From the IMG/VR virus record IMGVR_UViG_3300043464_001367, positions 1-61,911 of that record: 61,911 nt of DNA. One strand, 5' to 3'. This DNA is from a virus. Both the position numbers and the translations under genes were made by a program. This document shows, one piece after another, positions 26,997 through 49,491 of this stretch; within the stretch, counting starts at the first letter, position 1; each line of letters opens with the position of its first letter. The notes under the pieces are model-generated. The model worked only from the letters and a program-made list of their open reading frames with translations, did not search any database and was not told the origin of the DNA.

Positions 26997-27020
26997 CAAT
27001 TGTTTAGGAAACAAAGAAAG

Positions 27021-27167
27021 ATGCAACGAAACCAACTTCTGTTGATGATCAGGAAATCAGGTTTAAAAGTTGATTATTCAATCAAACAAGTGATAATACA
27101 AATATCAGAAGATATTGACCGAATGATTTTGGATGATTTGATAAAACTGGGGGCTCGTCGTGAGTAA
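27021..27167 (+). CDS. Micro-protein of the K(S/A)GLK family
   Basis: This 48-residue protein has LLLMIRKSGLKVDYSIKQ then IIQISEDIDRM. Both parts match the micro-protein at 27379 (LLAKIKKSGLKVESL, then IKQISKDFDQM), so the two are paralogues. AGGAAA lies upstream of the ATG. It is probably one helix-turn-helix-sized domain. The function is unknown. Confidence 0.55.
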   Translation: MQRNQLLLMIRKSGLKVDYSIKQVIIQISEDIDRMILDDLIKLGARRE

Positions 27168-27333: not shown

Positions 27334-27378
27334 ACTAGCGTCTTAGTGCCTTTTCGCAAACAAACCATGGAGGTTGTT

Positions 27379-27588
27379 ATGAGCATAAGCATGACACAGG
27401 CTCGAATCTACAGAGCGCAAATGTACAATCAAGGAAAGCTTCTGGCAAAGATCAAAAAATCGGGTTTGAAAGTTGAATCTTTGGCAGAAAGAATGATAAA
27501 ACAAATATCAAAAGATTTTGATCAGATGGCTTCGGTTAATTTGGTTGGATTTAGTAAACTGGTGCCTCTTTGTAAACAAACGAGTTAG
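27379..27588 (+). CDS. Micro-protein of the K(S/A)GLK family
   Basis: This 69-residue basic protein starts at 27379 with GGAGG five bases upstream; an in-frame GTG at 27346 is less likely. It shares LLAKIKKSGLKVES and IKQISKDFDQM with the micro-protein at 27021. The stop codon is directly followed by the methyltransferase ATG. Confidence 0.6.
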   Translation: MSISMTQARIYRAQMYNQGKLLAKIKKSGLKVESLAERMIKQISKDFDQMASVNLVGFSKLVPLCKQTS

Positions 27589-28197
27589 ATGATGTCAAAC
27601 ACAGATCCATTAACATACAATGCCGATTACTACAAAACCTCAAACTATGCTGACTACATGGAGCGTTCAGACCGCTACAAAAAGACAGCATATGAGATTT
27701 CCAACCTGCTGAAGCAGTTAAGTCTTGCAACCAACGACTCTTGTTTGCTTGATTACGGCTGTGCAATTGGCTTTCTGATGGAGGGCTTCAAGGAAGTTGG
27801 ACACAAGAACGTCATAGGCTTTGAAGTCTCAGAATGGGCTGCTGGTGAAGCTCTGAACCGTGGCAACGCAGTCACTACCAACCTTGAAAAGCTAGCAGAC
27901 AGAAACATTGATGTCATGGTTTCTTTGGATGTGTTTGAACACATGACTGACGAAGAAGTTTTTAGTGCCATCGACAACACAAACCCAAGAGCTCTTGTTG
28001 TGAGAATCCCAGTTTCAACGGATGGTGGGAAAACTTTTCACCTTGCTGTTTCAAGAGCAGACAAAACCCACATCAACTGTAAAACTTCGGATCAGTGGAT
28101 TGAGTTCTTTGCTTCTATTGGGTACAGAACCTTCTTGAGACTCAATCTGTTCACTGTCTATGACACACCAGGAGTGCTGTGTTTGTTGATACTATGA
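27589..28197 (+). CDS. Class I SAM-dependent methyltransferase
   Basis: This 202-residue methyltransferase has LLDYGCAIGFLMEGF (about residues 50-64) as the SAM-binding motif I, VIGFEVSEWA as the acidic second strand, and VSLDVFEHM near residue 107 as motif IV. It resembles the sugar or small-molecule methyltransferases found in glycan clusters. It would methylate a sugar, lipid or nucleotide. Its place between the radical SAM gene and the sugar dehydrogenase supports a role in the same pathway. Its stop overlaps the next gene by ATGA. Confidence 0.85.
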   Translation: MMSNTDPLTYNADYYKTSNYADYMERSDRYKKTAYEISNLLKQLSLATNDSCLLDYGCAIGFLMEGFKEVGHKNVIGFEVSEWAAGEALNRGNAVTTNLEKLADRNIDVMVSLDVFEHMTDEEVFSAIDNTNPRALVVRIPVSTDGGKTFHLAVSRADKTHINCKTSDQWIEFFASIGYRTFLRLNLFTVYDTPGVLCLLIL

Positions 28198-28637
28198 CAA
28201 AAGAAAATACAATGCAGTTTGAAACTGATTTAAAAGAAAGATTCTTTAAAGCGCAACCCGACGGCACTGTGCATGAGATAACAGAAAAAGAGTACAGGGG
28301 TGGTTTTAGCAGACTTTATCCTTACGCACACTTTCACGATCCCGGTGCAACTGCCAAGGATGTTCTGATAAAACTGGGAAAAGGCTTGGAAACTGGCTCT
28401 GTTTCAATCGAAGAGGCCGTTGGTTTCCTTAACGCTTCGAAGCTTGTGTTTCTTAACACACACACCAACATGCTTTCGCAGTGGTTTTACGAGGAACCAG
28501 ACTCGTATAGTCGAGCAATTTTCCACAACGCCACTTCTTGTTCTTGTTTGTGTGGACCTCTGAGTGATCCTTGCAATGAACAAGGGCCTGGTTCCAAAGT
28601 AAGCTTTTCGTTTAAGAAAGAAGAAACACTGAGATGA
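28194..28637 (+). CDS. Hypothetical protein ending at the dehydrogenase-start repeat
   Basis: This 147-residue protein starts with an ATGA overlap at 28194. It has a QPDGTVHEI segment near residue 22 and a Cys-rich part (CSCLCG and C) near 120. The last codons (KKEETLR then stop) overlap the ATG of the first copy of the dehydrogenase start. The next gene copy in the array ends in almost the same codons (EKEETSR), and it also has a PDGT segment, so the two proteins may be distant duplicates. The function is unknown. Confidence 0.6.
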   Translation: MTKENTMQFETDLKERFFKAQPDGTVHEITEKEYRGGFSRLYPYAHFHDPGATAKDVLIKLGKGLETGSVSIEEAVGFLNASKLVFLNTHTNMLSQWFYEEPDSYSRAIFHNATSCSCLCGPLSDPCNEQGPGSKVSFSFKKEETLR

Positions 28638-28705
28638 AGATTGGATTTATGGGCCTTGGGAAATTGGGTTGATTATTTATTCGCATGAAGTTCACGGCTC
28701 CTAAA
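28616..28705 (+). repeat. First copy of the dehydrogenase-start/endonuclease-start repeat
   Basis: This 90-bp unit contains the end of a gene (KKEETLR), a 12-codon frame MKIGFMGLGKLG followed by TGA (28634-28672), a 12-base spacer, and the first seven codons (MKFTAPK) of an endonuclease-like frame. It matches the unit at 28992-29081 at 76 of 90 positions without a gap. The 12-codon frame is the start of the sugar dehydrogenase gene at 29848, which begins MRIGMMGLGKLG and continues. Confidence 0.9.
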
Positions 28706-28780
28706 TATGAGAATGTCAAATGGAAACGATTCATCGCACAGATTGTTTTGAAATTCAAGAAGGTCCAGCAGTTTGTCTGA
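28685..28780 (+). pseudogene. Remnant of a GIY-YIG endonuclease start
   Basis: A frame begins MKFTAPK exactly as the intact endonuclease at 29061 does, after the same spacer, but then diverges and stops after 31 residues (YENVKWKRFIAQ then a lysine-rich end). No GIY-YIG motif remains. It overlaps the start of the gene at 28720. This looks like what is left of an earlier endonuclease copy after deletion or replacement. Confidence 0.6.
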
Positions 28781-29013
28781 TTCATCCTGATGGCACTATT
28801 CAGGTGCAACGTCTTTTGATGAAAATAACTCGTGACGAAAATGGCATTATCATAGATGTTGAGAAGAGTGGCATTGTAACTTTGCCAGAACTCTATGTGA
28901 TTGGAGAACAGATCAACGAAGATGAAACATGGACTGGTCCAGTAATCTATAAGCCACACGATTATACACCATACAAACTTGTTCAAGTAGAGAAAGAAGA
29001 AACATCAAGATGA
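28720..29013 (+). CDS. Hypothetical protein inside the endonuclease array
   Basis: This 97-residue acidic protein (CLIHPDGTIQVQ near residue 19, then LLMKITRDENGIIIDVEKSG, and a C-terminal EKEETSR) lies between the two repeat units. Its last codons overlap the second dehydrogenase start by ATGA. No ribosome site is obvious. It may be a passenger gene carried with an endonuclease cassette, or a diverged duplicate of the gene at 28194. Confidence 0.55.
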   Translation: METIHRTDCFEIQEGPAVCLIHPDGTIQVQRLLMKITRDENGIIIDVEKSGIVTLPELYVIGEQINEDETWTGPVIYKPHDYTPYKLVQVEKEETSR

Positions 29014-29081
29014 AAATTGGATTCATGGGTTTGGGTAAGTTGGGTTGATTACTTATTTGCATGAAGTTCACAGCACCTAAA
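28992..29081 (+). repeat. Second copy of the dehydrogenase-start/endonuclease-start repeat
   Basis: This 90-bp unit matches the one at 28616 at 76 of 90 positions. It contains EKEETSR, the frame MKIGFMGLGKLG with TGA (29010-29048), the spacer, and the start of the intact endonuclease. Within the 12-codon frame all differences from the first copy are synonymous, as if both had been under selection as coding sequence. Confidence 0.9.
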
Positions 29082-29846
29082 GGCAAAAAGCTCTGCGGCA
29101 TATACCAAATCACTAACTTGATTGATGGTAAATGTTACTACGGCCAATCTTATGATATACGCAGAAGGTTTCGTGACCACTACCAACATCTCATGAAAGG
29201 CAATCATGACAACCAGTATCTTCAACATGCTTTCAATAAACATGGCTCTGATGCCTTTGAGATGAGAGTAATTGAACTGCTTCCAACTAACGAACTAAAC
29301 GTTGCCGAACAACTACTGCTTGATGAACATGTTGGCAAAAAACACTGTTACAACATCATGCGTAGTGTTGACCAAACCTTTCGAGGACAAAAACACTCGC
29401 CAGAAGCCCTTGAGAAGATGAGTAAGACATGGTTTGGTAAAGGTGAAAATCATACCAATTTTGGCAAACATCTATCGGGGGATATTCGTCAAAAAATTAG
29501 CGAAGCTCATAAAGGTAAAACTCTCTCTGAAGAGACAAAGAAAAAACTTAGTGCGCTTAATTCCGGCGAGAGCCATCCGTTTTATGGCAAATACGGCCCC
29601 GCACATCCTGCGTATGGTCACAAGTGGTCAGAGGAAACTCGTGCCAAAATGACCATTCCAATGCAAAAACATCAAACCAAAGTCGTACAATACGATAGAG
29701 GTTCCGGCAATATACTGGCTGAGTTTGAAAGCTTGAAAACTGCGGAAAATGCAACAGGCGTTGCGTATCAAGCTATTTCTCGATGTTGTCAAGGGATAAG
29801 GCCATCTGCTGGAGGCTTTATCTGGAAATATAAAGGAACAAAATAA
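29061..29846 (+). CDS. GIY-YIG homing endonuclease
   Basis: This 261-residue free-standing homing endonuclease cuts a target in relatives that lack it and is copied into them during repair. It has the GIY-YIG nuclease domain (CGIYQITNLIDGKCYYGQS, residues 12-30, and an Arg/His helix DIRRRFRDHY). Several NUMOD3-type DNA-binding repeats follow (HSPEALEKMS near 113, SGDIRQKISEAHKG near 140, SEETKKKLSALNSG near 155, SEETRAKM near 193), and then a C-terminal NUMOD1-like domain (VVQYDRGSG, then FESLKTAENATG and IRPSAGGFIWKY). It lies directly before the sugar dehydrogenase gene, leaving only one base between stop and start, so it is inserted at the start of that gene. Confidence 0.93.
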   Translation: MKFTAPKGKKLCGIYQITNLIDGKCYYGQSYDIRRRFRDHYQHLMKGNHDNQYLQHAFNKHGSDAFEMRVIELLPTNELNVAEQLLLDEHVGKKHCYNIMRSVDQTFRGQKHSPEALEKMSKTWFGKGENHTNFGKHLSGDIRQKISEAHKGKTLSEETKKKLSALNSGESHPFYGKYGPAHPAYGHKWSEETRAKMTIPMQKHQTKVVQYDRGSGNILAEFESLKTAENATGVAYQAISRCCQGIRPSAGGFIWKYKGTK

Positions 29847-29847
29847 C

Positions 29848-31164
29848 ATGCGTATCGGAATGATGGGCCTCGGAAAATTGGGTTTGCCTTGTGCTCTTGC
29901 TTCTGAGGCTGCTGGACATGATGTTGTTGGGTATGATCTCAACCCTGCTGTTGCTGGTTATATCAGAGACAAGAAGATTCCATATCGTGAGGAAGGCACG
30001 CCTGAGTTGCTTGTAAACACCAAGATCAGGGTTGTGTCTGTTGACGAGGTTGTTGCTCACTCAGACTTGATCTTTGTGGCAGTTCAAACGCCGCACAACC
30101 CAAGGTTTGAAGGCACAACTCGAATCCCAGAAGAGCGAGTTGACTTTGACTACACCTACCTGATTGATGCTTGCACTCAACTCAATGCTGCAATCGAAGC
30201 ACAGGGAGTTGACAAACCTGTTGTTGTTATTTCAACCGTTCTTCCAGGCACCATGGATTCAAAGGTTCTTCCTTTGCTTGGGCCTCATTTCAAACTGTGT
30301 TACAATCCATTCTTCATTGCGATGGGAACCACGGTTTATGACTTCACACACCCAGAGTTCGTGCTGTTTGGAATGAGTGACGAGAAGACTGCTGATCTGG
30401 CTGAGTCTTTCTACAAGACCATTCACAAAGCTCCGTTCTACCGTTGCTCTATCAAGAGTGCTGAGTTGATCAAGGTTGCTTACAACACCTTCATCTCCAC
30501 GAAGCTTGCTTTCGTGAATAACCTGATGGAAGTCTGTTATCATACTGGTGCTGATGTTGACGAAGTTACCTCGGCACTTAAACTCGCAACTGAAAGACTG
30601 ATCTCTCCAAAGTACCTCAATGCTGGAATGGGAGATGGTGGTGGGTGCCACCCAAGAGACAACATCGCTCTTTCCTGGCTCTCCAGAAAACTTGGAATGA
30701 CCTATGACTTCCACGAAGCCATCATGGTTGCAAGAGAGAAGCAGACGGAGTTCCTGGCAAACTTGATTCAAAAACACATTCATGCGATTGATTACGAGAA
30801 ATCACAATCGCTAGAAGTTGGACATGCATACAAAACTCTTCCAGTCATCATTCTTGGAAAAGCTTTCAAGGAACAAACCAACCTTGAAGTTGGTTCTCCT
30901 TCGATACTGTTGAAAAACATCTTGGCTGAACGTGGAATAGAAGCTAAGATGTATGATCCTTGGATTGATCCATGTGATGACAAGACAGTAAATCCTTATG
31001 AGGATGCTGCTCCTCACTTGTTCTTCATAGGAACTCATCATGCTGTCTTTGCCGACTACAAGTTCCCCAAGGGCTCAGTTGTGGTTGATCCATGGAGAAT
31101 GATCAAAGACCAAGATGGAGTCGTTGTCATTCGGGTTGGTGAAGCTACAAAAACACCAGTTTGA
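29848..31164 (+). CDS. UDP-glucose/GDP-mannose dehydrogenase family enzyme
   Basis: This 438-residue NAD-dependent enzyme would oxidise a nucleotide sugar such as UDP-glucose to the uronic acid. It has the Rossmann start MGLGKLGLPCALASEAAG, a VAVQTPHNP segment near residue 75, a STVLPGT segment near 131, KVAYNTFIS near 209, and the catalytic Cys267 in GGGCHPRD. The C-terminal domain has LGKAFKEQTNLEVGSPS. All main motifs are present, so the enzyme is probably active. Its first 12 codons are also found twice upstream as short stopped frames. It would supply an acidic sugar to the neighbouring glycosyltransferases. Confidence 0.92.
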   Translation: MRIGMMGLGKLGLPCALASEAAGHDVVGYDLNPAVAGYIRDKKIPYREEGTPELLVNTKIRVVSVDEVVAHSDLIFVAVQTPHNPRFEGTTRIPEERVDFDYTYLIDACTQLNAAIEAQGVDKPVVVISTVLPGTMDSKVLPLLGPHFKLCYNPFFIAMGTTVYDFTHPEFVLFGMSDEKTADLAESFYKTIHKAPFYRCSIKSAELIKVAYNTFISTKLAFVNNLMEVCYHTGADVDEVTSALKLATERLISPKYLNAGMGDGGGCHPRDNIALSWLSRKLGMTYDFHEAIMVAREKQTEFLANLIQKHIHAIDYEKSQSLEVGHAYKTLPVIILGKAFKEQTNLEVGSPSILLKNILAERGIEAKMYDPWIDPCDDKTVNPYEDAAPHLFFIGTHHAVFADYKFPKGSVVVDPWRMIKDQDGVVVIRVGEATKTPV

Positions 31165-38334: not shown

Positions 38335-38808
38335 ATGGCACTACAGAGTTTCAAAAATGTTGGAATCAGAGAGTTTCAACCTCAGAACGTCCTTTCCACT
38401 CCTCAGAGTATAACTCCGATTGGCATTAAAACGCCTGCAACACTAGGGGATAACGGCGATGGCATCCTGGCGATGTACACGAACATTCAAGATGTTGTGC
38501 ATGACAACTTGAAGAATCTCCTTCTTACCAACCATGGTGAAAGACTTGTTCACTATGACCTTGGTGCCAACCTTAGACCGCTGGTTGCTGACTTCTCATC
38601 CAAAGATGACTTTGATGGTGAAGCGATGATTCGTATCAACACAGCAGTTGCAAAGTGGATGCCATTTATCAACCTGGTTGGTTTTGACTCAAGACCTGAA
38701 TTCATTGACAACCGTTTTGTCGGAAAAATAGTTACTCTTTTGGTTTACAGCGTTCCTCAACTTGGAATCAATGAGCGAGCCCTGGAAGTCCTGTTGTTTG
38801 TTATTTAA
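38335..38808 (+). CDS. gp25: Baseplate wedge protein, gp25-like
   Basis: This 157-residue protein belongs to the gp25 family at the base of contractile tails. Recognisable are IQDVVHDNLKNLLLTNHGERL (about residues 51-71) and the HYDLGANLRPLVAD segment, with a C-terminal strand pair (RFVGKIVTLLVYSVPQ). The length fits (T4 gp25: 132). It initiates sheath assembly together with gp6- and gp53-type proteins. The gp6-like gene follows after eight bases. Confidence 0.9.
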   Translation: MALQSFKNVGIREFQPQNVLSTPQSITPIGIKTPATLGDNGDGILAMYTNIQDVVHDNLKNLLLTNHGERLVHYDLGANLRPLVADFSSKDDFDGEAMIRINTAVAKWMPFINLVGFDSRPEFIDNRFVGKIVTLLVYSVPQLGINERALEVLLFVI

Positions 38809-49466: not shown

Positions 49467-49491
49467 TGAGTTTTTCAACTCAGGCTACTTA
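49467..49491 (+). promoter_or_regulatory. Hairpin followed by CTACTTA before the 49497 gene
   Basis: A hairpin (TGAGTT and AACTCA, loop TTTC; 49467-49482) is followed by CTACTTA (49485-49491), which ends five bases before the ATG. The hairpin may end the previous transcript and the word may start the next. Such close spacing would leave almost no leader, which counts against promoter function here. Confidence 0.3.

Follow-up and report, generated by a model that had tools for sequence, protein, structure and literature searches.

Native start stubs and a recoded working start around a homing endonuclease in a phage sugar dehydrogenase gene, with parallel cases at other phage genes

In the viral DNA IMGVR_UViG_3300043464_001367, a stretch of 61,911 nucleotides that is called the window here, a GIY-YIG homing endonuclease (HEG) is located at the start of a gene for a UDP-glucose/GDP-mannose dehydrogenase. 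A dehydrogenase-type start ATG is present three times, at 28634, 29010 and 29848. The first two open a 12-codon frame, MKIGFMGLGKLG, which is followed by TGA. The third, 3' of the HEG, opens the working gene with the recoded sequence MRIGMMGLGKLG (MRIGMM..). Judged by comparison with relatives, the stopped copies are the native start type and the working start is a recoded replacement. This combination of a native stub with a recoded replacement end is common to the two leading explanations discussed below, and it is held with high confidence. The features of the locus are as follows (ORF, open reading frame).

28179-28637, + strand: ORF152, 152 codons, ending KEETLR; the native gene upstream of the dehydrogenase, by homology to the neighbours in relatives L001-L004.
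28616-28705, + strand: repeat unit 1 (upstream gene end, stub 1, spacer, first 7 codons of the first HEG); 76/90 identity to unit 2.
28634-28672, + strand: stub 1, native dehydrogenase start MKIGFMGLGKLG then TGA; same peptide as the start in L001-L005.
28674-28679, + strand: TATTTA, which fits the TANTTA motif and lies at -11 of the start of the first HEG; from the sequence and motif statistics.
28685-28705, + strand: scar of the first HEG, MKFTAPK, 7 codons only; synonymous to the second HEG start, with no HEG similarity further downstream.
28720-29013, + strand: ORF97, 97 codons, ending KEETSR; coding-like by codon use, no relative found.
28992-29081, + strand: repeat unit 2; by identity to unit 1.
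29010-29048, + strand: stub 2, native-type dehydrogenase start MKIGFMGLGKLG then TGA; by sequence comparison.
29050-29055, + strand: TACTTA at -11 of the HEG start, a candidate promoter motif carried by the insert; TANTTA clusters at -11/-15 of genes and is depleted elsewhere.
29061-29846, + strand: GIY-YIG HEG with NUMOD3 repeats, 261 aa; Pfam and PHROG 314 (homing endonuclease).
29848-31164, + strand: UDP-glucose/GDP-mannose dehydrogenase, the target gene, 438 aa; Pfam PF03721/PF00984.
29848-29898, + strand: replacement start of the dehydrogenase, recoded over about codons 1-17, with an approximate right edge; 68% identity to L001 over 60 nt, then about 90%.

The descriptive part of an earlier, sequence-only reading of this DNA was reproduced. 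The three starts, the same 12-base spacer and MKFTAPK opening after each stopped copy and the repeated end of the preceding gene (KEETLR in ORF152, KEETSR in ORF97) were found as claimed, and the ungapped match of the two units gave the same value when recomputed. The runner-up 90-mer in the window had only 45 matches to unit 1. Stub 1 and stub 2 differ at 7 of 36 codon bases, and all seven differences are synonymous, as had been stated; the probability that the peptide stays unchanged after 7 random substitutions is about 2e-5. The MKFTAPK codons of the two units show two differences, both of them synonymous. Differences of this kind most likely built up in the two stubs and the two HEG starts at a time when these sequences still had a useful coding role. 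A plain assembly duplication is an unlikely origin of the double unit, since the units differ at 14 positions. Between stub 2 and the recoded patch, 11 differences were counted in 36 nt, 6 of them in synonymous codons.

The closest relative, L001 (dehydrogenase 89% identical), provided the empty site. Its gene order matches the window (radical SAM gene, methyltransferase, ORF152 remnant, dehydrogenase), with a single start MKIGFMGLGKLG and no HEG. L002-L005 likewise have a single start with the MKIGFMGLGKLG peptide, which is why the stopped copies are assigned to the native type. HEG-free relatives with the same three starts would have spoken against the sequence-only reading, but the HEG-free L001 has one only. 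The dehydrogenase start of the window is 68% identical to that of L001 in the first 60 nt and about 90% identical beyond. The sequence-only reading had taken the stopped copies for pieces of a donor's gene and the real gene for the one that had kept or regained its start. The comparison reverses these roles: the start of L001-L005 is of the stub type, and the recoded working start probably came from the donor. The dehydrogenase of a further relative, L012, also begins MRIG with a CGT codon, as the patch does, and the patch may come from an L012-like lineage. Separately, the L012 gene carries an intein-like in-frame insert at GGGC/HPRD (L012:5802-6853), another kind of mobile element in the same gene. 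The dehydrogenase matches in L169 and L173-L176 are 400-500 bases longer than expected, which suggests further inserts.

The HEG of the second unit is intact, in agreement with the earlier claim. It matched Pfam GIY-YIG (PF01541) with E=1.8e-8 and 35 bits against a cut-off of 22.6 bits, NUMOD3 (PF07460) with E=4e-17 and phrog_314 with E=2e-43. The residues G13, Y15, Y26, G28, R36, E83 and N98 are invariant in an alignment of five HEGs. The enzyme is free-standing, a separate ORF with its own start, and the dehydrogenase (Pfam E=2e-24) is uninterrupted. What had been described as a decayed, nested endonuclease in the first unit is only the seven-codon scar, followed by the unrelated, coding-like ORF97. 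A search of viral contigs for the stub-plus-spacer DNA pattern gave no match.

Parallel insertions were found when the HEG junctions in the contig of L002 were read against the near-identical contig of L003 and against L004. The L002 contig contains five HEGs in 40 kb, namely four of the GIY-YIG type and one judged HNH-like from its sequence; no HNH_3 HEGs were found in the sister records. Two architectures were observed. At gene starts, a native stub is followed by the HEG and a recoded start, and at gene ends a recoded end is followed by the HEG and a native stub. The cleanest case is c1, the HNH-like HEG in a 340-aa gene of the L002 contig. Its stub (MKISAYTTTRNCEE-ILTCWHG, then a stop) precedes the HEG, after which MKFKISAYTTVRNAIS is joined to MDYPFVESIRSM. 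The stub equals the empty allele of the L003 contig through GAGGAGAT, and identity resumes with 46/46 positions from ATGGACTATCC. Stub and gene body thus meet with an overlap of 2-3 nt, and solely a 48-nt patch differs. This patch resembles the homologue of the gene in the window, MIPRISAYTTVRNADS. The second start-type case, c4, has the stub MGFLDSKSRIW with a stop, the HEG, and then MAGFLSSKSRI joined to MDTIITLEGRR. In the leader of its HEG (L202:17170-17209), the HEG start is directly preceded by a perfect inverted repeat of 8 bp, TTGGTAAC..GTTACCAA, which is reminiscent of the hairpins that control translation of T4 HEGs. The mirror image is c6 in the L003 contig, where a recoded end (CQYVRSNFLVRVPGHPNTYVKVR, then a stop) is followed by the HEG and the native end (ANFLVKTDPTNHPNTYSKVR, then a stop). 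In c2 (L002), a methyltransferase with a different 3' end precedes the HEG and the native tail TCTACTTTGCTTGCC, a tail that L003 has too. L003 and L004, both HEG-free there, also differ from each other in the methyltransferase body, so the divergent tract of c2 is no proof of transfer. The insertions c3 and c5 lie at gene boundaries with small changes only.

The flanks of 158 distinct HEGs were then scanned by comparing the downstream gene start with the sequence before the HEG, and the upstream gene end with the sequence after it. A case was called clear at a score of at least 44 that also exceeded all 60 cross-pairings of that locus. Nine cases were clear (L234, L335, L300, the window, c1, L281, L224, L235 and c6), six of them outside the window's own phage group. 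A previous, looser flank comparison had set only the window apart from chance; the nine cases appeared after the comparison was limited to gene starts and ends and HEG loci were added. Among the targets, named from their sequences alone, are a helicase of uvsW type (L335), a methyltransferase resembling FkbM (L281) and a DnaC-like ATPase (L224). The two L224 ends agree at 18 of 20 residues, yet at only 70% of the bases, and 13 of the 18 differences in 60 nt fall in synonymous codons. L300 was flagged by the start test and is an end-type case on reading. The stub of L281 carries a frameshift, as expected of a dead remnant. The case of c4 scored 38, which is not clear by scan alone, and rests on its empty site. 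At the terL-like gene of L118, the stub MSSEQSIK and the start MSSEQDIK lie below the statistical line but are anchored at the start. L110, with a flank match of 31/35, is a candidate outside the nine. Low-scoring matches in L085, L101, L286 and L223 were not accepted.

The arrangement is also present in T-even phages at the nrdG site. In RB18, where the site is empty, nrdG directly follows nrdD and starts with MNYDRFYPCDFVNGPG. In vB_Eco_OMNI12, the native nrdG start MNYDRFYPCDFVN forms the N-terminus of the endonuclease ORF (MNYDRFYPCDFVN-DKLALIFEENN), and the DNA flanking this stub is 93-100% identical to RB18. After the HEG, nrdG restarts with MNYDRIYPCCFVNGPG; its identity to RB18 is 73-83% over about 54 nt and 93-100% after that. 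Thirty phage records covered at least 80% of this arrangement. T4 mobC begins MNYDRIY, seven residues identical to the opening of T4 nrdG, and the nrdG beside it differs from RB18 for about 300 nt before identity rises to 97-100%. T4 mobC therefore probably shows the stub architecture as well; it is kept as probable only, because mob-type HNH enzymes often begin MNYxxIY. At the nrdD-nrdG junction, Escherichia phage LH2 (L354) carries a different endonuclease with the nrdG start MNYDRIYPCCFVN as in OMNI12, and Klebsiella phage vB_KpnM_GF (L355) carries a non-HEG insert. Work by Sandegren et al. in 2005 on SegH and Hef reportedly concerned this same site.

We favour, with moderate confidence, an insertion of the HEG at codon 12 of the dehydrogenase by one-sided double-strand-break repair. 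The HEG would cut its target near a gene end, in the window near the dehydrogenase start. The 3' end of the break on the side of the gene body would then be extended on a donor that carries the HEG beside a diverged, cut-resistant copy of the gene, and the recipient would thereby gain the donor's recoded start together with the HEG. The other broken end, bearing the native first 12 codons and lacking homology to the far side of the donor, would be joined illegitimately and become the stopped stub. The gene would run from its new start and the site could presumably no longer be cut. Such a repair predicts that stub and gene body adjoin each other at the cut site, and c1 and c4 have this form. 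Gene ends may be favoured because the stretch that the donor has to provide is then short. In phages, repair of HEG-induced breaks draws on the donor and is accompanied by co-conversion; where homology exists on one side only, T4 intron homing has been shown to take the path of one-sided illegitimate repair, with microhomology at the junctions (PMC2988022).

The main rival fits nearly as well. In it, HEG and recoded gene end would form a ready-made mobile cassette that is inserted whole at the cut and spreads by ordinary two-sided homing, as a natural cleave-and-rescue element. The native left and right parts in c1 and c4 meet with an overlap of 0-8 nt, so that patch and HEG behave as one insert, and both window units have a common junction and spacer. 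However, the patches look like ordinary starts of homologues, as seen for the c1 patch and the window homologue, which is as if they had been copied from a donor gene, and the long divergent tract in T4 nrdG is likewise expected of such copying. We consider the cassette possible but the less probable of the two. Its extension to phage free-standing HEGs in general is equally tentative; they would then be self-compensating cassettes (expression leader, nuclease and pre-recoded, cut-proof target end), that is, a cleave-and-rescue drive that enters essential genes at either end. The earlier suggestion of a leader-peptide role is compatible with one-sided repair. Translation from the native start would couple to or initiate HEG synthesis, with the stub as leader or N-terminal extension. 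Each window stub overlaps the end of the upstream gene as ATGA and has its stop 12 nt ahead of the HEG, the OMNI12 stub is fused in frame to its HEG, the stop of the c1 stub overlaps the HEG start, and the differences between the window stubs are all synonymous. The latter is equally explained by divergence as working starts before insertion, though, and the frameshifted stub of L281 and the HEG's own TANTTA motif at -11 speak against such a function, which appears rather doubtful. A role as decoy target site, also suggested earlier, is unlikely because a stub would hold only one side of the presumed cut.

A tandem duplication within one phage, with the HEG incidental, would account for the repetition of the upstream gene end (KEET.R) along with the starts. 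It is very improbable, as the third start differs in sequence type, only one start is present in the empty relative, and unrelated HEGs at unrelated genes show the same architecture. Since the HEG separates a 5' piece of the gene from its body, a group I intron, or a segment bypassed in translation, could also be thought to link stub and body, but the dehydrogenase has its own complete start and an Rfam search found no intron family in 28100-30300, which makes this reading hardly credible.

The proposed insertion meets several difficulties. No donor genome that combines this HEG with this start was found, and the boundary of the window patch is blurred, with L001 only about 85-90% identical. 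No clear duplicate was detected at 149 of the 158 HEG flanks, although the scan cannot see stubs that are short or diverged, as in c2. Among eleven T4 HEGs tested, ten (segA, B, C, D, E, F and G; mobA, B and E) have no detectable stub. ORF97 between the units stays unexplained.

The sequence-only reading had proposed two successive invasions of the same site. The invasion by an endonuclease is supported by the empty site of L001 and the parallel sister cases, and two events are the simplest reading of the double unit. The first insertion would have left stub 1 and a first HEG. A second one-sided event would have replaced all but seven codons of that HEG and brought in ORF97, stub 2 and the present HEG, from a donor phage in which ORF97 preceded that phage's stub, HEG and dehydrogenase. 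This would explain why KEETSR at the end of ORF97, which forms the left edge of unit 2, resembles KEETLR at the end of ORF152, and why stubs and HEG starts differ synonymously. As the source of ORF97 was not found, we give this history about an even chance. ORF97 scored +0.37 bits per codon in its own frame versus -0.67 in the other frames, and no relatives of it were found by peptide patterns in viral contigs, nor in phage records, PHROGs or sister records. Peptide patterns in viral contigs also gave none for ORF152, whose relatives were found only by local comparison. Its C-terminal part is 38-42% identical to the gene that immediately precedes the dehydrogenase in L002-L004 and 91% identical over 34 aa to the remnant in L001. 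In that remnant (L001:2910-3019), ORF152 is cut down to about its last 34 codons, apparently by deletion.

The nearest counterparts are mobile ORFs of fungal mitochondria, which carry foreign C-termini and leave the native end downstream (PMC3630166). In Allomyces atp6 and Glomus atp6, atp9, cox2 and nad3, the HEG is likewise located at the gene end with a recoded foreign end joined and the native end beyond the HEG, and the differences are largely synonymous, as between stub and patch in the window (PMC3630166). These systems differ in that only C-termini of mitochondrial genes are concerned, whereas phage genes are affected here at starts and ends, by GIY-YIG and HNH enzymes and with a doubled insertion. 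The free-standing seg and mob genes of T-even phages (intronless homing) resemble the present case as GIY-YIG or HNH HEGs between phage genes of a polycistronic unit with co-conversion of neighbours (PMC2988022). They are described as intergenic, gene-splitting insertions being exceptional, whereas the HEG here lies inside a gene end, the native end is a stub and the end is resupplied. One-sided repair in T4 intron homing, with homology on one side and illegitimate joining on the other, matches the path proposed here, but is a laboratory event with introns and not a natural insertion of free-standing HEGs. HEGs within coding sequence are also known from Aeh1 mobE in nrdA and T4 mobA in a topoisomerase gene, where two polypeptides result, while here the recoded end restores the gene (PMC2988022). 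No description of resupplied gene starts in phages was found in the literature; an earlier remark on nrdG starts may exist for the T-even nrdG-site enzymes.

The architecture suggests how free-standing HEGs could enter packed phage genomes, for example at terL, uvsW-like and nrdG genes, without killing the genes, and why they look intergenic. Stub and recoded end form a recognisable scar that marks the target of an HEG and its approximate cut site from sequence alone, and HEGs would exchange host gene ends from one phage lineage to another. With the T-even nrdG case, the proposal becomes testable in laboratory phages. Gene callers misread stubs: the OMNI12 annotation assigns the nrdG start to the endonuclease.

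Of 272 gene starts in the window and L201-L213, 55 have the TANTTA motif in the 40 nt before them, mostly at -11 or -15, versus none in a within-gene control. The motif is several-fold depleted genome-wide by base composition, with 31 occurrences seen versus 207 expected in the window; examples are located at 29050-29055, 49486-49491 and 38802-38807. The motif is a candidate phage promoter that would give near-leaderless mRNAs. The window differs from L001 in a stretch between its radical SAM and methyltransferase genes, which holds two small ORFs side by side (27000-27167 and 27346-27588) with a mutual identity of about 41%.

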